Origin: Sphaerobacter thermophilus DSM 20745
GTDB lineage: Bacteria; Chloroflexota; Chloroflexia; Thermomicrobiales; Thermomicrobiaceae
Assembly (NCBI RefSeq): GCF_000024985.1
Contig: NC_013523.1
Span: 930,001 to 994,000, forward strand
Direction: 5' to 3'
DNA: 64,000 nt
The notes under the pieces are model-generated. The model was not told the origin of the DNA. It did not search any database and saw only the letters and a program-made list of their open reading frames with translations. Every line of letters starts with the position of its first letter. Position 1 is the first letter of the stretch. Below are positions 34,504-43,113 of this stretch, piece by piece. The position numbers and the translations under genes were made by a program.

Positions 34504-35019
34504 ATGACCGTGCCACGCAACGCAGTAGCACCGGCGCAGCGAGGACGCCCCGTTCAGCGCACCAGCAGCTCCTCCAGCCTGGCGGACGTGCTCAATGTGA
34601 TCCTCGACAAGGGCATCGTGATCGATGCCTGGGCGCGCGTGTCGGTGGTCGGGATTGAGATCCTGACGATCGAAGCGCGTGTGGTCGTGGCGTCGATCGA
34701 TACGTACCTGCGCTATGCGGAGGCGATCGGCCTCACGGCGCTCGCGGCGGCTCCTGCGGAGCATGGAGCCCAATGGCAGCAGAATGGACGCGGCCCAGGA
34801 GGAGAGCGCCCATCCGAGGACGAGGTGTACGCATTCGTCGCTGAAAACCGGGGTGGTGTGAGGCTGGGCGAGCTGGAGGCCTACTTCGACGTATCACGGC
34901 AGGAACTGGAGGACATCGTCGACCGCCTGACTGAGGAAAATCGACTGCAACGGGACGAGGAGCGTCGGCTCTACTACGTTGCCGAAGAGAGTCAGATCGA
35001 GGCAGGTGGTAGCGACTAG
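34504..35019 (+). CDS. gvpA: Gas vesicle shell protein GvpA with winged-helix-like C-terminal extension
   Basis: A 171 aa protein. Residues 24-80 are a clear GvpA/J core: [19 protein letters not shown], then [22 protein letters not shown]. This forms the ribbed hydrophobic wall of the gas vesicle. After a Gly/Pro linker, residues 103-161 look like a winged helix: [55 protein letters not shown]. Typical GvpA is only 70-80 aa or has a simple tail, so this fusion is odd. GGAAGGG is 10 bases before ATG 34504. It is first in the gvp cluster. Confidence 0.88.
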
Positions 35020-35188
35020 GGTCGACGGGAACAATGGCCGGGCACCACAGCGCGTTGCGCAGAGGACGTGAGAGGCGCGACCCGCCGAAACACGGCCCCT
35101 TCCCGCGACGATGCCGGTTTGGTGCCCGCGTTGCCGTGGCGGCAGTTGGATGGACCGGTGCTCGGCGGTAGCGATGTGGAGGACATGA

Positions 35189-35962
35189 GTGAACGTCGTT
35201 GCTGGCACCTACGTCTACTGCGTCAGCTCTGCCCAGTCGTTCGGCCAAGGCAGCCCAACGTTCACGACACCAGGCATCGGAGGTCATGGCGCGGTGGTGC
35301 GCATCATCGCGGAGGGAGACCTGGCGGCAGTCGTGAGTGATTCGGCGGCGGTGCACTACGACGTCAGCCGGGAGAATCTCCTGGCGCACCAGCGGGTGCT
35401 TGAAGAGGCGATGGCGCAGTCGGATATCCTCCCCGTCGCGTTCGGCACTGTCGCAGCGAACGACGACGAAGTGCGTGAGGCGCTCCTCCGGCGCGAGGCC
35501 GACCACCTGCACGCGAATCTCGACTACATCCGAGGCTGCGTCGAGCTCGCGCTCCGCGCACTCTGGCAGCCCGAGCGTCTCTTCGAGGAGATCGTCGCTG
35601 AAGACGACGAGATCCGCGCGCTGCGTGACGGCATCGCCAGCTACCCGGAGGCGGCTACGGAGTTCGATCGCATTCGGCTGGGCGAGCTGACTGAGTGGGT
35701 CATCAACGCGAAGAGCGACGTGGAAGCCGAAGCGATACTCGGCGAGCTGCAGCCGATTGCCGTGGACACGGTCCTGAACCCGATCGTCACGGAGATGATG
35801 ATCCTGAATGCAGCGTTCCTGGTGGAGCGGACAAGGGTTCCCGAGTTCGACGTGGCCGTTCAGGAGATCGGTGCATCTCATGCTGAGCGCCTGAGCTTCC
35901 AGTACGTCGGCCCGCTGCCGCCCTTCAATTTCGTCGATGCCAGCGTGAATTGGGAGGACTAG
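35189..35962 (+). CDS. gvpF: Gas vesicle protein GvpF/GvpL (first copy)
   Basis: A 257 aa protein of the GvpL/GvpF family, which bind GvpA and help nucleate vesicles. GTYVYCVSSA at the N-terminus, ILPVAFGTVAANDDEVREALL in the middle and YVGPLPPFNFVD at the end are the three family hallmarks. GTG 35189 has GGAGG 8 bases upstream. gvpG follows after 4 bases. F and L cannot be told apart from sequence alone. Confidence 0.88.
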   Translation: MNVVAGTYVYCVSSAQSFGQGSPTFTTPGIGGHGAVVRIIAEGDLAAVVSDSAAVHYDVSRENLLAHQRVLEEAMAQSDILPVAFGTVAANDDEVREALLRREADHLHANLDYIRGCVELALRALWQPERLFEEIVAEDDEIRALRDGIASYPEAATEFDRIRLGELTEWVINAKSDVEAEAILGELQPIAVDTVLNPIVTEMMILNAAFLVERTRVPEFDVAVQEIGASHAERLSFQYVGPLPPFNFVDASVNWED

Positions 35963-35966
35963 CCCA

Positions 35967-36251
35967 ATGGGCCTGCTCTCCGGCCTGTTGCTCTTTCCCA
36001 TTGCCGGGCCCGTTCGTGGGCTTCGGTTCGTGCTGGAGCAGATTCGTGAGGAGGCGGACGCGCAGTTGTTCGACGAGAACGCCGTACAGGCGGAGCTGAT
36101 GAGCCTCGACCTCCTCTACAGGCAGGGCGAGATCTCCGACGAGGAGTACGAAGCACGTGAGGCCGAGCTGTTCGACTACTTGAACGCCATCCGTGCGTCC
36201 AACGAGGGCCGTGGAGAAGGAGACGAATATTGGGAGGGTGACGCATGGTGA
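35967..36251 (+). CDS. gvpG: Gas vesicle protein GvpG
   Basis: A 94 aa helical protein with family pattern MGLLSGLLLFPIAGPVRGLRFV and LYRQGEISDEEYEAREAELFDYL. GvpG is a small accessory protein of vesicle assembly usually encoded beside gvpF/L, as here. It overlaps the next gvpF/L gene by 7 bases. Confidence 0.9.
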   Translation: MGLLSGLLLFPIAGPVRGLRFVLEQIREEADAQLFDENAVQAELMSLDLLYRQGEISDEEYEAREAELFDYLNAIRASNEGRGEGDEYWEGDAW

Positions 36252-37114
36252 CGGAGAGGTCTCAGAACGCACCGCAGCCGACACCAGAAGCAGGAGCGAC
36301 GGTGGGTGGCGACCGTGCCTGGTATCTCTATGGCGTCACCCGGTCTGACTCCTTGATCCACGACCTGCTCGAGCGGACACGTGCAGACGTGAGGGATGCA
36401 GGAGAAGCCCTGCAGGCGTTGATCTGCGGCGACCTGGCGGCGATCGTCCGACCGGTGTCGTCGGAGGAGTTCGGCCCCGAGCCACTTGAGAAGCACCTCC
36501 AGGATGTCGCGTGGCTGGAGGCGGTCGTCCGGGCGCACAACGATGTCATCGCTGTCTTCCATCGCGGCCGAGCCATCCTGCCCGCCAAGTTCGGATCTGT
36601 CTTCCGCTCGCAGGAGGATCTCCGAGCGGCACTGACGGAGGCACACGACGCCCTCGTCCGGCAGCTCGACCGCCTGACCGAATGCGACGAGTGGGCCATT
36701 CATCTCTACGTTGATCGGGATGTGGTGGAGCAACGCGTCGGCGAAACGTATCCGGAACTACAGCGGCTCAGGGAGGACGTGGAAACGGCACGTCCGGGCC
36801 GTGCATACCTGCTCCAGCGTCAACTCGATGCAGAACTCGCGTCGGCCACCGACGCGATGCTGAGCGACGTGGCCCTGGCGGCTTTCGAGCGTCTGCAACG
36901 GCACGCGGTTGCCGGTGAGACCACCTCTCCGGTGCGTGCCGATGACCCCGACGCCGAGATCCTGCGCGCGGCCTTCCTGGTCAGGCGTCATCATCTGCCG
37001 GCCTTCCTGTCCGAGGCAGACAGTATCACGGATTCAGGCACGGGCGTGCGCTGTGAGTACAGCGGCCCGTGGCCACCCTACAGCTTTGCAGCCCCCAGGG
37101 ACGAGGTACCGTGA
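36245..37114 (+). CDS. gvpL: Gas vesicle protein GvpF/GvpL (second copy)
   Basis: A 289 aa member of the GvpL/F family: WYLYGVTRSDS at the start after a 25-residue disordered lead, AILPAKFGSVFRSQEDLRAAL, an extended helical middle (VETARPGRAYLLQRQLD is the usual 'GRAYL' region) and YSGPWPPYSFAAP at the end. It is longer than the first copy. Its stop overlaps the start of the next gene by one base. Confidence 0.88.
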   Translation: MVTERSQNAPQPTPEAGATVGGDRAWYLYGVTRSDSLIHDLLERTRADVRDAGEALQALICGDLAAIVRPVSSEEFGPEPLEKHLQDVAWLEAVVRAHNDVIAVFHRGRAILPAKFGSVFRSQEDLRAALTEAHDALVRQLDRLTECDEWAIHLYVDRDVVEQRVGETYPELQRLREDVETARPGRAYLLQRQLDAELASATDAMLSDVALAAFERLQRHAVAGETTSPVRADDPDAEILRAAFLVRRHHLPAFLSEADSITDSGTGVRCEYSGPWPPYSFAAPRDEVP

Positions 37115-37335
37115 TGAGTAACGTCGTATCCGACACGCGCGAGGTGGGCCTGGTTGAACTACTGGACCGTGTCCTCGATCACGGGGTCATCCTGGTCGGG
37201 GACATCACCATCTCGGTGGCTGAGGTCGACCTCGTCTACCTCGGGCTCCGGGTCATGCTCTCCTCAGTCGAACGAGCCGATGAGTTACGTCGCAGCGCGG
37301 TGCCGTTGACCGCAGGCAAGGTGACTGATGTCTAG
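37114..37335 (+). CDS. Short GvpJ/GvpS-type shell-like protein
   Basis: A 73 aa member of the GvpA/J/M/S superfamily: GLVELLDRVLDHGVILVGDITISVAEVDLVYLGLRVMLSSV. The 'GD-ITISVAEVDL' version rather than 'DAWxRVSxVGIE' marks a minor shell protein (J/S-type), thought to act in nucleation or tips. ATG 37114 overlaps the upstream stop, and its own end overlaps the next gvpF/L gene by 8 bases. Confidence 0.82.
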   Translation: MSNVVSDTREVGLVELLDRVLDHGVILVGDITISVAEVDLVYLGLRVMLSSVERADELRRSAVPLTAGKVTDV

Positions 37336-38086
37336 CGCTCGCTACGTGTACGCCATTCTCCCACGCGATGCGCATCCGCCGGCCGGGCTGACCGGATGGG
37401 GCGGCACTCCTCTGACCACTGTGACCTGGTGCGACCTCGCGGGGATGACGAGCGCCGTCAGCCCGGGCGAACCGCAGCCGACACCGGACAACGTGCTGCG
37501 CCACGCGGCAATCGTCGAGCGACTGCGCGAGGTCGGGCCAATCCTGCCTGTACGTTTTGGGACCGTGCTCCGCGATGGTGACGCGGTCAAGGAGGCGCTT
37601 GCCCAGCGCTGTCACGTGCTGGTCGCCGATCTGGAGCGGTTGGGCTCCAAGATCGAGCTCGGCCTCACGGTGTTGTGGGATCCGCCCGACGTGACCAGCG
37701 AGGAAGTCGCGAGCGAGCGCCATGCTGGGAGCGGCGATGGAACGCGCTATCTCCAGGCGCGGCTCGTCGAGCAGCGCCGTGAGGCAGTGCTACGGCGCAA
37801 CGCCGGGAAAGTCGTGAGGGAACTGGAAACTGCGCTCGACCCCCATGTGCTGGAGCAGCACAGCACAATTCTTCCAACTCCCCGGCTGCTGCTGCGCGCG
37901 GCGTATCTTGTGGACCCCGCGCGAATCGGGTCGTTTCAGGACACGCTTGGAACGCTGCGCGCGAACCACCCTGAGCTGCGCTTCCTGCTGAGCGGTCCCT
38001 GGCCTCCGTACAGCTTCGTCTCGCAACCCAGCGAGGCTGACCAGGTGCACCCGACGAGACGAGGCCGGAGGGCAGAGCCCATGTGA
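37328..38086 (+). CDS. Gas vesicle protein GvpF/GvpL (third copy)
   Basis: A 252 aa GvpL/F family protein: RYVYAILPRDAHPP, ILPVRFGTVLRDGDAVKEAL, a 'GTRYLQARLVEQRREA' helical region and LLSGPWPPYSF. Three different F/L proteins in one operon suggest heteromeric assembly factors. It is followed by a 94-base gap before the next gene. Confidence 0.87.
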   Translation: MSSARYVYAILPRDAHPPAGLTGWGGTPLTTVTWCDLAGMTSAVSPGEPQPTPDNVLRHAAIVERLREVGPILPVRFGTVLRDGDAVKEALAQRCHVLVADLERLGSKIELGLTVLWDPPDVTSEEVASERHAGSGDGTRYLQARLVEQRREAVLRRNAGKVVRELETALDPHVLEQHSTILPTPRLLLRAAYLVDPARIGSFQDTLGTLRANHPELRFLLSGPWPPYSFVSQPSEADQVHPTRRGRRAEPM

Positions 38087-38180
38087 CGTGTCGAGCCGTG
38101 TGGGAGACGGCGGCTACACCTTTGCACCTTGGGCGACGCACGCTGGAGTCCATCGTGGCAGACGATGAGGAGCGACTTTT

Positions 38181-38660
38181 ATGAGTTCATCGGACAAGGA
38201 ACGCAACCAACGCGCGAATGATGAGAAGGCCGATCGCGAGTCTTCGGCGTCCCAGGCGTCAGGCCGCCGTCAGAGCCGGGCTGCATCGAAGCGCCAAACC
38301 CAGGAGACCAAACAGCGGACTGGGAAGGCGGCGGACGAGCGTCAGCGGGAAGAGCAAGCAGCCGGCAACGACGATCGTCGGTCCACTCAGGCTGGTCGCC
38401 GACCTGTCGCGAATGGGCAGGTCTTTGATCCGAGTGCCGCAATCAAAGTCGAGCGTCTGCGGCTCGTACGGCGCTGGAGAGAGGCTGGGCTCACATACTC
38501 GGCGATCTACGCCTACAGCCAGGTCATGGAACGCTATCCGTGCACAGGTGCCTCCAGAGCCGCCGCCGAGGAACTCCTGGAAATGGCGAAGGAACAGCTC
38601 GACGAGGATCGGTACTACACCGCCCTCGGCATCTTCAATCGGCTCGAGGAGCTGGCATGA
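38181..38660 (+). CDS. Unknown gvp-cluster protein, disordered N-terminus and TPR-like C-terminus
   Basis: A 159 aa protein of no recognised Gvp family. Residues 1-80 are charged and low-complexity (Ser/Gln/Arg/Asp). Residues 90-159 are helical, with a tetratricopeptide-like pattern: LTYSAIYAYSQVMERYP, then AAAEELLEMAKEQLDEDRYYTALGIF. The stop overlaps the gvpK start (ATGA), so it is translated with gvpK. An adaptor or scaffold role in vesicle assembly is an inference from position. Confidence 0.7.
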   Translation: MSSSDKERNQRANDEKADRESSASQASGRRQSRAASKRQTQETKQRTGKAADERQREEQAAGNDDRRSTQAGRRPVANGQVFDPSAAIKVERLRLVRRWREAGLTYSAIYAYSQVMERYPCTGASRAAAEELLEMAKEQLDEDRYYTALGIFNRLEELA

Positions 38661-39124
38661 CGCTCCACTCCGGGAAGAGTGACGACGTGGACTCGGTCAC
38701 GCGCGAGCCTCTGCCGCCGATCGACGAGCGGTTGAGCGGGGACCTTGAAGCGCTGGACCATTTCGCTCGCGAGCTGTCGCAGCTCAGGACTTCAGGACGG
38801 GCTCAAACCGTTCCGAGCACTGATCGACAGGTCAGCGGCGCAGGGATGATGCCGGATCGGATCGATGCGGACCCCGAAACCGCTGAGCAGGGCCTGGCAA
38901 AGCTCGTCCTTACCTTAGTCGACATCCTCCGTCAGGTGCTCGAAAAGCAGGCGATTCGACGCATGGAGGCCGGATCGCTCAGCGAGGCGGAGATCGAGCG
39001 GTTGGGTGAGACGTTCCTGAGGCTCAACCAGAAGCTGGACGAGCTCAAGGCCGCGTTCGGACTCGAAGATGACGATCTCAGGCTGAATCTCGGTCCGATC
39101 CGGGACCTGCTGTCGGAACCGTAA
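38657..39124 (+). CDS. gvpK: Gas vesicle protein GvpK
   Basis: A 155 aa protein. The C-terminal two thirds match GvpK: RIDADPETAEQGLAKLVLTL, LEKQAIRRMEAGSLSEAEIE, GLEDDDLRLNLGPIRDLL. The N-terminal 65 residues are variable. GvpK is one of the conserved assembly proteins of most gvp clusters. ATG 38657 overlaps the previous stop. Confidence 0.93.
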   Translation: MTLHSGKSDDVDSVTREPLPPIDERLSGDLEALDHFARELSQLRTSGRAQTVPSTDRQVSGAGMMPDRIDADPETAEQGLAKLVLTLVDILRQVLEKQAIRRMEAGSLSEAEIERLGETFLRLNQKLDELKAAFGLEDDDLRLNLGPIRDLLSEP

Positions 39125-39192
39125 TCGGTCCGCGTGTCGGAGCACATCGGTGCCGGAGGCATTGCGAGGTTCAGCCGTCAGAGGAGTAACCG

Positions 39193-39612
39193 ATGAGTAG
39201 CAGCGGCGATCGCCCAGCCATCACTCGACACCAGGACTCACCCTATCGTCCACGCCCTGGCAGTCCACGGGCTGCTGCCGGCGTCCAACCGACCAACCTG
39301 GCCGATCTCCTCGAGCGCGTGCTGGACAAGGGAATCGTGGTCGCCGGTGACATCACGCTGTCTCTTGGTACCGTCGAGGTCCTCTCGCTCAAGATCCGAC
39401 TGCTGATTGCGTCGATCGACAAGGCCCAGGAGATCGGCATCAACTGGTGGCAGTTTGATCCTGCACTTTCCTCGAACGCCAGGACACCCGAACTCGAGGC
39501 CAATGGGCTGGGCGAACGGCTCGACCGCATCGAAGCGCAGCTCGCCGCGCTCGCACGACAACCGAGCGAAGAGCCCGCCGAATCGCGAAACGCGGGTCCC
39601 GGCGAGGCATGA
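39193..39612 (+). CDS. gvpJ: GvpJ-type minor shell protein with C-terminal coiled coil
   Basis: A 139 aa protein. The core at 34-90 is NLADLLERVLDKGIVVAGDITLSLGTVEVLSLKIRLLIAS cut into recognisable J-type motifs, ending in INWWQFDP. Residues 103-125 (LGERLDRIEAQLAALARQ) look like a short coiled coil. GvpJ proteins are low-abundance wall or tip components. It belongs to the same transcription unit as gvpK, 68 bases away. Confidence 0.85.
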   Translation: MSSSGDRPAITRHQDSPYRPRPGSPRAAAGVQPTNLADLLERVLDKGIVVAGDITLSLGTVEVLSLKIRLLIASIDKAQEIGINWWQFDPALSSNARTPELEANGLGERLDRIEAQLAALARQPSEEPAESRNAGPGEA

Positions 39613-39730
39613 AACGTGCGTTTTGCGTAGCAGTTGCCAGCCAAGATATCCGCAGAGCGCTCGCTAGACCGCTTTCTCGATCCTGGTGCGGAGGACCTCG
39701 GCTGGTCGAGTCGCTCGAGGAGTACGGGAC

Positions 39731-40327
39731 ATGGAAGACGTGGAGATCGACGAGCAACCCCGAAGCGATGGTGAGTCGCAGGCATCGTCGAGCAGTGCGC
39801 AACGCACAGACGGCCCGGATGAGCATGAAGAGAGCGCGGATGTGGGACGATCAGACGGACAGACAGGCGCAACCGCTGAGACGGGCGTGAGCCCGTCGCT
39901 TCAGGAGCAGATCGCTCAGGCGATCCAGCCGATAGTGACCGACCTCCGCCAGCAGATTGCTCAGACCCTGCAACAGCAGATGCAACAGCCGTCGGAGCAA
40001 GGGCAGGAGCCTGGGGAACAGGCTGGCGGTGGACTACAGGCTGCGCTCGCGCAGACGGCTCAGGCGATACAGCAGGCGTTCGCCTGGGTGCGGCAGATGG
40101 CAACGACCATCATCGAAACCGTACGTGAGTGGATCGAGAAGGTCATCGCAGCCATTCGCCGTCTCGCCCTGTCGGCAGTGGCGCAGGGCATCAAGGCTGC
40201 GGCCAAACCGCTCTTGAAGACGGCTGTGAACAAGGGTGCTGGAATGGTCCAGGACCAAGGCAAGCAGCGGCTGGAAGCGCTGCGCCAGCGACGGCCCGAC
40301 GCCGAGCAGGCGACGGCCGCAGGCTAG
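39731..40327 (+). CDS. Gln-rich helical gvp-cluster protein with QP motif (1)
   Basis: A 198 aa unrecognised protein. The acidic, disordered first 55 residues are followed by LQEQIAQAIQPIVTDLRQQI (57-76), which aligns without gaps to the next two proteins. A Gln-rich stretch follows, then a long amphipathic and hydrophobic helix region (about 105-170: AFAWVRQMATTIIETVREWI, RLALSAVAQGIKAAAKPLL). It could coat the hydrophobic vesicle surface or a membrane. That is inferred from composition and place. The 118-base gap before it has no gene. Confidence 0.7.
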   Translation: MEDVEIDEQPRSDGESQASSSSAQRTDGPDEHEESADVGRSDGQTGATAETGVSPSLQEQIAQAIQPIVTDLRQQIAQTLQQQMQQPSEQGQEPGEQAGGGLQAALAQTAQAIQQAFAWVRQMATTIIETVREWIEKVIAAIRRLALSAVAQGIKAAAKPLLKTAVNKGAGMVQDQGKQRLEALRQRRPDAEQATAAG

Positions 40328-40400
40328 TCCAGGGTCCGTCGGTCCGGTAGCAGTGGACGTTCGTCCGCTGTTGTAACCCCCTTTCTGCGAGGAGAATGCT

Positions 40401-41501
40401 GTGATCGGTGGCCTGGACAAACAATCGCAGGAGCCGCGACGTCGGCACGTCCAGGCGCCAGGGACGAATCCCGGTGACCAGTCGGAGGGCGCTCCAGCGA
40501 GCGACAAACGGCTTGAGCAGCGGATTGCCGAGGCGATCCAGCCGGTCCTGCCACGTGTGCAGGAGCAGGCGGTTCAGGCATTGCATGCTCAGCTCCAGGA
40601 GTCCTTTCAGCCCGGCACCACGCCTAGCGAACAGAAACCCGCCGACAACGGAAATGGCACCGGGACGGTCGGGACCATCGTTCGACCGCTCGTGTCGACC
40701 ATTCCCGAGGTCCTGCGTGAGCAAGGGGAGCAGCCACTGCGCTCGCTGGTTCTCGATGCGCTGGACACGATCTTCTCTGACTCGGTACGTGCGAGGTTCC
40801 AGCACGATGCCGAATCGACGCTCCGCGAGCTGGTCGACATCACCCTCGAGGTCATTCCGGATACGGAGAGTCGGGATGATCTCAGGATGCACTTGCAGCG
40901 GACGCTCGATGAGCTATTACAGGAGACGCTGGACCAGATCTTCTCAGGTCCGCTGCGAGCCGACATAGAGGGCCATGCAGAGCGTGCCATCGATGCCTTG
41001 GTCGCCGGTGACAGTGCCGAGGCCGTCCGGCAGAGCAAGCTCGTCGTCCTGACGCTGGTCCACGATTTCTCCGCCGTACTGCAGGAGCACTGGCACCAGG
41101 TGCTGCGACTCCTCCTTAGGGTCGTCACAGCGGCGCTGCAGGAAGTCGTCACCTCAGCGATCAAGAAAGGACTTGAGTCCGTCGTGGCTGAGCCCGCTGA
41201 AGAGCTGGCTGAACAAGCGGATAGTGTGCAGGATCGGCTGCAGGAGAAGGGTGAGGAGCTCCGGGACGAACTCAAGCGCGCTGTCGAAGCCTTACGCGAG
41301 CTCATCGAAGAGGGCACGGAGGAACTGCAGGAGCGTATTCAGGAATCAGTACGCTCGTCAGTCACCGGCCAGGGGCGTCCACGAGGCGGCTTCGGTCATC
41401 CTCCCTCCGGCCGGCCACCGTCCGGCCGGCCACCCTCGGGAAGGCCACCGTCCGGGCGCGCTCCAAGGGGGCCACGAGCGATCGCCCCACCATCACGGTG
41501 A
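40401..41501 (+). CDS. Helical gvp-cluster protein with QP motif and PPSGR repeats (2)
   Basis: A 366 aa unrecognised protein. After a basic start comes LEQRIAEAIQPVLPRVQEQA (38-57), the motif shared with its neighbours. Residues 90-320 are almost wholly helical, with hydrophobic stretches (KLVVLTLVHDFSAVL, VLRLLLRVVTAALQEVVTSA) and a charged coiled-coil-like part (DRLQEKGEELRDELKRAVEAL). The tail carries four PPSGR repeats and a basic end. GTG 40401 follows GCGAGGAGAA. It is probably structural. Confidence 0.7.
   Translation: MIGGLDKQSQEPRRRHVQAPGTNPGDQSEGAPASDKRLEQRIAEAIQPVLPRVQEQAVQALHAQLQESFQPGTTPSEQKPADNGNGTGTVGTIVRPLVSTIPEVLREQGEQPLRSLVLDALDTIFSDSVRARFQHDAESTLRELVDITLEVIPDTESRDDLRMHLQRTLDELLQETLDQIFSGPLRADIEGHAERAIDALVAGDSAEAVRQSKLVVLTLVHDFSAVLQEHWHQVLRLLLRVVTAALQEVVTSAIKKGLESVVAEPAEELAEQADSVQDRLQEKGEELRDELKRAVEALRELIEEGTEELQERIQESVRSSVTGQGRPRGGFGHPPSGRPPSGRPPSGRPPSGRAPRGPRAIAPPSR
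41400..41459 (+). repeat. Four 15-base units encoding PPSGR
   Basis: Consecutive codons spell PPSGR four times. Third bases differ between units (for example TCC GGC CGG against TCG GGA AGG), so the repeat is kept at protein level rather than recently copied. Confidence 0.9.
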
Positions 41502-41676
41502 TCGTCGGATTGACGCGTGGCTCTGGCCTCTTGCATGCCCAGGACAACCGCTCGGGATGCTCGTGACTAGAGTGTATGCCCGTTCGTACCAGCGGGGACT
41601 GACTGCGCGAGGTGCCCAGACAGATGCCGCACACGGCGTCATCATGTTCGGAGCGGCTGAATGAAAGGAGAGGCCG

Positions 41677-42228
41677 ATGCCCGAGCAGACCCAGTCGGAG
41701 CAGGAGCCCCAGGAGCAACAGCAACTCGAAGGCAACGCGGAGGAGCAGTCCAGCGACGCAAAGGCGGAGCGGAAGAGCGGGACCAGCCGCAAGCGGAAGA
41801 GCAACCAGAAGAAGACGAAGTCGGCCCAGCCTGAGGCAGAAGAGCGCGCTGAGGCTCAGCCGGAGCCTGAGGCTGCGACGTCGCCGCAGAGTGACCAGGA
41901 CCTTGGTCAAGGGTTGCAGGACCAGATTTCGCAAGCCGTTCAGCCGGCGCTAGAGCAGGCTCAAGCGCTCGTCTTGGAGGCAGTGCAGCAGCAGGTCGAC
42001 CAGGCGCTGGAACCGGTTCGGCAGGAGTTGCAGCAGCAAGTCGACCAGGCGCTGGAGCCGGTCCGGCAAGCAATCCTCCAACAGGTCGAGCAGCAAGTCG
42101 ACCAGGCCCTGGAACCGGTCCGGAAGCAGGTACAGGAGCAAGTCGATCAGGCTCTCGAGCCCTTGCGGCAGGAGCTGCTGCGCCAGGTGGAGGAAGCGGT
42201 GCGCACCTCATTTCAAGCAGGGCGGTGA
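41677..42228 (+). CDS. Gln-rich repeat protein of the gvp cluster with QP motif (3)
   Basis: A 183 aa unrecognised protein. The first 75 residues are disordered (acidic, then basic, with Arg/Lys/Ser). From residue 80 it is one amphipathic helical array: ISQAVQP (84-90) followed by four VDQALEP[VL]R units at 107, 122, 141 and 156, spaced 15, 19 and 15. The first part aligns with the two preceding proteins. Helical Gln-rich repeats recall GvpC-type coat proteins by character only, with no sequence match to known GvpC. GAAAGGAGAGG precedes the ATG. Confidence 0.75.
   Translation: MPEQTQSEQEPQEQQQLEGNAEEQSSDAKAERKSGTSRKRKSNQKKTKSAQPEAEERAEAQPEPEAATSPQSDQDLGQGLQDQISQAVQPALEQAQALVLEAVQQQVDQALEPVRQELQQQVDQALEPVRQAILQQVEQQVDQALEPVRKQVQEQVDQALEPLRQELLRQVEEAVRTSFQAGR
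41995..42168 (+). repeat. Four coding repeats, VDQALEP[VL]R units
   Basis: Four imperfect 27-base units starting at 41995, 42040, 42097 and 42142 (for example GTCGACCAGGCGCTGGAACC). The first three are nearly identical in DNA and the fourth has diverged, pointing to fairly recent duplication of the first three. Confidence 0.85.
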
Positions 42229-42552
42229 CACGGGCGATCCAAGGACCTGCCGGGGGCACCGCGATTCAGTCGGCCGCGATGTGCTTCTCTTCTTTCAACG
42301 TGACGACCGCACGAGTGGGCGAGGAATACGGCCTGGAGACTGGTTCGTCATAGATGCGTCGACGCATTGCCGCGCATCCGGCCCCCAGGGAAGGTACCTT
42401 TCCCGGGGGCCGGACGCTGCCAGGACCCGCTTGTCATGGACGGCGCGATACTCGCCCAAACCGTGCACCGCCAGCCACGATGCACGCTGGCCCCACCATC
42501 GTGGAGCCCGTGTCCGTGTCCTTGGCGTCAGCAATAAGTGGAGCGCATGGTG
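42229..42552. other. Intergenic region at the end of the gvp operon
   Basis: About 320 bases without a convincing gene. It contains a long imperfect palindrome (42377-42414) that may end the gvp transcript. Confidence 0.5.
42377..42414. terminator. 19-bp stem palindrome, probable gvp terminator
   Basis: The sequence from 42377 to 42395 pairs with 42396-42414 with one A-C mismatch and one G-T pair. The centre is AAGGTACCTT. No T-run follows, so it may also be a binding site. Confidence 0.5.
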
Positions 42553-43113
42553 ATGAAGCAGGACGAGACCAACCAACGGATCACGTTGACGGACCTCATC
42601 CTCAGCGTGAGCACTGGTGAGGATGGCGCGCCAACGAGGCCGATCATCCGGTCTGCCACACTCGAAGTGACGGATCAGGTGTTCCGTGCCATTGTCGCAA
42701 CCATCCTCGGGCAAGAGCGGGCCACCCCGGTCGGGACGCTCCGCTTCCACGACGCCCAGTGGGTGGACGGCGGTGCCTTGATCAGCCTTCGGCTGAAGGC
42801 CGGACCCATGCCTGCCACGGTCACCATCCATGCCTCGCTGGAGGCAACGCCCTCTGGGCGCCTGCTCGTGCGCCTTAGGCGGGCGAAGGCAGGACCGGTA
42901 CCGTTCACACTGCTGCTGATTCCGCTTGTCGAGCAGCTCGCGGAGCGTCCAGGGTTCTACAAAGTCGACGATCTCGCCTTTGAGATCGACATCGGCGAGC
43001 AGCTACGAGCCCAGAACGTACCGTTGGAATTCAGCGCGTCGGTCCGCGAGGTTGCCATCAGGCCAGGACTGGCCAGGCTGGTCGCCCGCGACCACGGGGC
43101 CCACGTGCCCTAA
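42553..43113 (+). CDS. Unknown protein at the right end of the gvp cluster
   Basis: A 186 aa protein of no sure family. It alternates strands and helices: LTDLILSVSTGEDG, DQVFRAIVATILGQ, VGTLRFHDAQWVDGGALISLRLKAG, ATVTIHASLEATPSGRLLVRLRR. This is vaguely like DUF2993/lipid-binding (LmeA-like) proteins, a weak resemblance. ATG 42553 has GGAG at 9 bases, with ATG 42547 and GTG 42538 as alternatives. It is separated from the gvp genes by a palindrome, so membership in the cluster is uncertain. Confidence 0.6.
   Translation: MKQDETNQRITLTDLILSVSTGEDGAPTRPIIRSATLEVTDQVFRAIVATILGQERATPVGTLRFHDAQWVDGGALISLRLKAGPMPATVTIHASLEATPSGRLLVRLRRAKAGPVPFTLLLIPLVEQLAERPGFYKVDDLAFEIDIGEQLRAQNVPLEFSASVREVAIRPGLARLVARDHGAHVP

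Follow-up and report, generated by a model that had tools for sequence, protein, structure and literature searches.

The stretch of DNA analysed here (the window, 64,000 nucleotides) belongs to the genome of Sphaerobacter thermophilus, which comprises 3,993,764 bases in two replicons, a size and replicon number identical to those given for strain S 6022T (PMC3035262). The window contains a gas-vesicle (gvp) cluster at 34504-42228 on the + strand, in which gvpA with a tail is followed by gvpF, gvpG, gvpL/F, gvpJ-like, gvpF2, a TPR-like gene, gvpK, a gvpA-like gene, and three further genes, here termed X1, X2, and X3. The first gene (34504-35019, +; PF00741, 53 bits) encodes the main shell protein with a C-terminal winged-helix-like tail (34813-34977, +), the same domain that ends GvpC in GvpC-bearing clusters. 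The genes from gvpF to the second gvpA-like gene, which is of the GvpS/J type, occupy 35189-39612 (+). The TPR-like gene, located before gvpK at 38181-38660, encodes a small protein that is conserved in the gvp clusters of genomes G021, G164, G419, and G222, and no Pfam or NCBIfam family matched it over the cut-off. Downstream of X3, a very stable hairpin (42377-42416, z -3.9, with no T run) may be where the gvp transcript ends; past this hairpin, a 189-residue protein with no Pfam match is encoded at 42544-43110. A search of the 60 nearest relatives, two of which belong to the same genus, found no gvpA-family gene; thus, the cluster in the window is patchy in its occurrence and perhaps acquired. 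No record of gas vesicles in S. thermophilus was found in the literature searched.

The three last genes of the cluster sit at the positions given in the original prediction, and a purine-rich stretch precedes the start of each. X1 (39731-40327, +; ATG start, 198 aa) consists of a putatively disordered lead, one 31-residue module (residues 56-86; 39896-39988, +), and a long hydrophobic/amphipathic helical region, and it has homologues in loci L103, L104, L105, and L042. X2 (40401-41501, +; GTG start, 366 aa) contains a disordered lead, one module (residues 37-67; 40509-40601, +), a helical domain (~94-256), an apolipoprotein-like amphipathic helix, and a PPSGR-rich tail, and its homologue in L005/L103 is 32% identical. 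X3 (41677-42228, +; ATG start, 183 aa), a GvpC-like candidate with homologues that are 43-53% identical, is composed of a disordered lead and one long predicted helix of 15-residue repeats, within which the module occupies residues 79-109 (41911-42003, +). Disordered leads had been anticipated for all three proteins; support is given for those of X2 and X3, whose N-termini are modeled with low confidence and are probably disordered. No Pfam or NCBIfam model exceeded its cut-off for X1, X2, or X3, and no family claimed them in a PDB sequence search, in which the best match for X2 was a designed helical nanopore (E 4e-4), with apolipoproteins next, and that for X3 was an apolipoprotein (E 0.01).

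The anticipated ungapped alignment of the three proteins over about 31 residues is beyond chance by both shuffles and profile comparisons. The three pairs of window modules share 12/31, 12/31, and 9/31 identical residues without gaps, and the best ungapped 31-residue BLOSUM62 scores between the full proteins are 69, 67, and 67, with none of 2000 local-composition shuffles matching the score of any pair. The X2-X3 module pair itself scores only 52; as is expected for a repeat, these two proteins align best in a different register. A profile built solely from the X3-type proteins of other genomes matched X1 of the window at 26.1 bits and X2 at 21.1 bits, scores that 5000 shuffles of each did not reach (maximum 11.0 and 10.5, respectively). 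Comparison of profiles with one another gave E-values of 6e-16 for X1/X3, 2e-7 for X1/X2, and 1e-5 for X2/X3.

These results bear directly on the explanation that X1-X3 are low-complexity Gln-rich helices that are alike by composition alone, or that they are out-of-frame artefacts. Glutamine makes up 26-29% of the X3 helix, weak apolipoprotein matches occur, and Leu-rich antisense frames are also open over X2 and X3. However, the local-composition shuffles never reach the observed scores, and the proteins are conserved over distant genomes, with codon position 3 being the most divergent and position 2 the least among the homologues of X1, X2, and X3. The antisense open reading frames were rejected because this substitution pattern fits the + frame. 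The explanation is refuted at the sequence level, and hardly any weight can be given to it.

The module is made up of a 15-residue repeat, [VI]xxA[ILVM]xP[VIL]xxx[LF]xx[QE], in about two copies, and the modules and the repeats of X3 are therefore the same thing. Across its relatives, X3 is a run of such units, each following the pattern hydrophobic-x-x-Ala-hydrophobic-x-Pro-hydrophobic. In the window, the four predicted VDQALEP[VL]R units are located exactly at residues 107, 122, 141, and 156 (41995-42186, +), and a fifth unit, ISQAVQP, is found at residue 84. Among 17 modules from the five clusters described below, one contig-edge case included, Pro12 is kept in 17/17, Gln5 in 15/17, and Ala9 in 15/17. 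The retention of these three positions besides the hydrophobic stripe suggests a specific partner, which would be either the GvpA rib or the winged-helix tail, the latter being found alongside the module in four of the five clusters. Outside the module, X1, X2, and X3 are dissimilar, which identifies the module as a common domain and the proteins as something other than full-length paralogues. Thus, the idea of three paralogues with a matching helix after each module gives way to one of three different proteins that have a short, repeat-derived module in common.

Based on a four-row alignment, X3 is predicted to form a single helix spanning residues 72-182, with pLDDT mostly 88-96, i.e., an amphipathic helical rod of ~110 residues and ~165 Angstrom encoded in a gvp cluster. 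In four homologues, the hydrophobic moment of X3 is 0.45-0.47 at 95-96 degrees (shuffle maximum 0.37) and the hydrophobic period is 3.75-3.79 residues, while the window protein is self-similar at lags of 15, 19, and 34 residues and the homologues at lags of 15 and 30. The model of X2 is of low confidence (pLDDT 60); its VIA Z of up to 11 is in a range common for helical bundles, and a fold search that included BAR domains and designed helical bundles gave no Foldseek match at E <= 0.001.

The amphipathic helix of X3 may also be a coiled coil, which counts against reading it as part of a coat. The module would in that case be a zipper that joins X1, X2, and X3, with X3 serving as a multi-site scaffold, and the complex would act off the shell wall, e.g., in vesicle clustering or membrane tying. 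Such an arrangement is consistent with the occurrence of the same helix in all three proteins, in many copies in X3 and in one copy in X1 and X2, with the strict 15/4 hydrophobic stripe, and with the hydrophobic helical stretch of X1. However, a plain coiled coil would not usually have conserved Gln and Pro positions beside its stripe, and a zipper by itself provides no account of the joint absence of GvpC and GvpN or of the GvpC tail on GvpA, which are described below. We regard the zipper as unlikely.

The spread of the set was followed in 400 Chloroflexota genomes. While gas-vesicle genes in this phylum are stated only for Viridilinea-related species in PMC7332563, a gvpK match (E <= 0.001) was detected in 53 of the 400 sampled genomes, with 52 over the cut-off, which represents a wider spread. 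The DNA around nearly all of these matches, together with G021, which was found via an X2 homologue, was searched with a module profile built from six sequences, of which the window and G021 contributed three each. Beyond the window, the module was matched in the gvp clusters of G021 (itself a source of the profile), G164, G323, and G419. Each of these four has X1- and X2-type proteins, and all have an X3-type protein, that of G419 being located on a separate contig end. Homologous X1-X2-X3 sets in five Chloroflexota gvp clusters, which represent four families over several classes, are a new observation.

A module scattered among proteins without gvp linkage would have been evidence against such a set. 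An X3 profile run over the 400 genomes matched only four (G000, G164, G323, and G419), all of them gvpK-positive, with G021 absent from the matches of this draw, and every match lay in a gvp locus except those on one contig-edge stretch. In the genome of the window, the module matched X1, X2, and X3 only, and among twelve whole genomes the module profile matched only the five module genomes. A pattern-based scan of limited sensitivity over the genomes of ~85,000 species found three loci, those of G021, G323, and G164, all of which are gvp clusters. No sets beyond those known were found in the classes of G323 and G164, no X3 relatives on plasmids, and no X1-profile relatives on viral contigs. 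A weak X2 match in G024 (L006, E 2.7e-5), where no gvp genes were seen, was dismissed as noise on the basis of its open reading frames. The linkage thus holds in five clusters and the proteins fall in no Pfam, NCBIfam, or PDB family, as had been proposed for an undescribed gvp-linked set.

The module is found at the head of other proteins of G164 as well, namely one with an ABM-like domain and perhaps the TPR-like gene product. In the former (L105:6334-6999, -), its fusion to the ABM-like (ferredoxin-like) domain resembles that of an address tag, and the Pfam match of this domain (E 0.012) is below the cut-off. Additionally, GvpA-like proteins with long Pro/Gln-rich tails are encoded at L041:11473-12084 (-) and L042:11858-12493 (-), in G323 and G419.

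The GvpC repeat protein and GvpN are absent from all five module genomes, one of which is 79% complete. GvpN was detected over its curated cut-off in 9/9 GvpC genomes tested and in 0/5 module genomes, and G222 and G299 possess GvpC and are devoid of the module. Elsewhere in the phylum, a 33-residue period is evident in the GvpC-like proteins of several loci, among them L050, L065, L066, and L084. A winged-helix-like domain of ~55 residues closes four of the 33-repeat proteins (L050, L065, L084, and L085). Of the loci searched, only the window, G021, G164, and G323 carry this domain at the C-terminus of GvpA. A GvpC profile (A7) run against the five module genomes recognized the GvpA tail alone in four, the genome of the window included, and nothing in the fifth. 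The domain at the C-terminus of GvpA and GvpC shows matches to MarR_2 and EutK_C that are below the cut-off, and no paper on a winged-helix domain on GvpC was found in the literature searched.

In a gvpK tree based on 88 columns, the five module clusters fall in one supported clade of eight (95/93), the inner order of which is not resolved; the other members are L054, L060/G299, and L065/G222. Within this clade, five clusters carry the module without the GvpC repeat and two carry GvpC and GvpN without the module, while L054 was assigned to neither group on account of its short contig and the 58% completeness of its genome. The gene order in G222 is gvpA, gvpC with the tail, gvpN, and gvpF, and the position of gvpA next to gvpC-gvpN suggests a loss of gvpC-gvpN in which the tail was transferred to GvpA. 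The simplest history would involve the deletion of the GvpC repeats and gvpN, the passing of the tail to GvpA, and the gain of X1-X3, with no order among the steps being implied. The mutual exclusion rests on one clade (5 vs 2) and hence amounts to little more than one evolutionary event; across the full 52 loci (5 module, 9 GvpC) it is not significant, as chance alone would give zero overlap in roughly one case out of three. Most of the Chloroflexota gvp loci examined, many of them cut by contig ends, carry neither GvpC repeats nor modules, from which it follows that a coat is not obligatory.

That GvpN is absent precisely where the module occurs also fits an alternative in which X1-X3 are assembly factors that replace the role of GvpN in vesicle growth and are not permanent parts of a coat. 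With their disordered, Q-rich leads and their amphipathic helices, they could act as chaperones of the hydrophobic GvpA. However, X1-X3 contain no ATPase domain, and the repeats of X3 are arranged in a way that would fit a long periodic partner; such a role is less likely still than that of a zipper.

We propose, with moderate confidence, that X1-X3 form a set of gas-vesicle surface proteins, which substitutes for GvpC (and GvpN) within a single Chloroflexota gvp lineage, and they are probably a different way of coating or handling gas vesicles. A GvpC-like role goes beyond mere analogy since the module clusters are without GvpC and GvpN, whereas their sister clusters have both and are without the module. 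The sequences establish the module and its gvp linkage, the lack of GvpC and GvpN in these genomes, and the presence of the GvpC tail domain on the GvpA of four clusters out of five, while the single helix of X3 is a prediction. The 15-residue proline-marked amphipathic repeat would be a putative docking element for the vesicle exterior, along which X3 would lie and, by analogy, reinforce it as GvpC does. X1 and X2 would be recruited to the same surface through one module (two units) each, where X1 may present its hydrophobic helical segment for vesicle-vesicle or vesicle-membrane contact and X2 its helical domain with the basic PPSGR tail. A further-reaching possibility, which we put forward tentatively and consider less probable than the surface set as such, is a second, independent vesicle coat, in which GvpC and GvpN were lost, the winged-helix-like domain moved to GvpA, and a modular 15-residue address tag brings the rod X3 and other proteins to the surface.

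GvpC is the best-established gas-vesicle strengthening protein and a common engineering target for ultrasound reporters. With a cluster type that is without GvpC and GvpN but has an exclusive, conserved three-protein set, the question of whether shell reinforcement evolved twice becomes testable. If the 31-residue natural docking tag works, it could also serve to display proteins of choice on thermophile vesicles in a straightforward manner.

Several known families display a partial likeness to components of this cluster. The amphipathic helix of X2 weakly matches GvpQ (NF041670; E 8e-5, 22.8 bits vs a cut-off of 100). Membership was rejected, since the score is far below the cut-off and the match lies in a generic amphipathic helix that also matches apolipoprotein and YtxH models. 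Membership in the apolipoprotein A1/A4/E repeats (PF01442) was likewise rejected, as X2 scores 31.2 and X1 18.9 bits against a gathering cut-off of 90. The likeness to this family, which consists of proline-punctuated amphipathic helices suiting a curved surface, is a works-like analogy only; the repeat length differs, and a lipid link for X1-X3 is not implied. The tail of the window GvpA resembles the EutK C-terminal domain (PF16365; E 0.05), a winged helix on a microcompartment shell protein, although at 14 bits vs a cut-off of 27.5 and in another shell system.

The closest comparison is with GvpC itself, and it raises the alternative that X3 is a highly diverged true GvpC whose repeat was borrowed by X1 and X2. 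The type of gene neighbourhood is the same, both have helical repeats, and length and Gln content are similar; moreover, 15 and 33 residues both give an ideal helix a net turn of 60 degrees, and the ancestry of short helical repeats can become untraceable. However, X3 gave no match to Chloroflexota GvpC with hhalign (probability 0.1%), which agrees with the expected lack of a sequence match to GvpC. Lag self-similarity revealed no 33-residue tandem repeat in X3, the period of which is 15/30/45 (34 in the window), whereas GvpC-like proteins of other loci show lag 33, and the hydrophobic period of 3.75-3.79 differs from the 3.30 of the Anabaena consensus. PF01304 was silent on X3, which is a weak test as this model also misses Chloroflexota GvpC. 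We consider descent from GvpC improbable.

In Anabaena, GvpC runs along the GvpA ribs with one 33-residue repeat per four GvpA (PMC10185304, PMC9994262), and the GvpA spacing is 12.1-12.7 Angstrom (PMC9994262). One 15-residue unit of X3 spans 22.5 Angstrom, ~11% short of two GvpA subunits (about 24-25 Angstrom); a simple commensurability of 15 residues with two GvpA was discarded as inexact, and the GvpC register is thus not carried over exactly. In the preferred reading of X1-X3 as a surface set standing in for GvpC, the X3 repeat of 15 residues with a proline contrasts with the 33 residues of cyanobacterial/haloarchaeal GvpC, and X3 is accompanied by two further module proteins while GvpN is absent. 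Analogous to GvpC, X3 is encoded in a gvp cluster, is rich in Gln, and consists of tandem amphipathic helical repeats predicted to form a rod, and it occurs where GvpC is absent.
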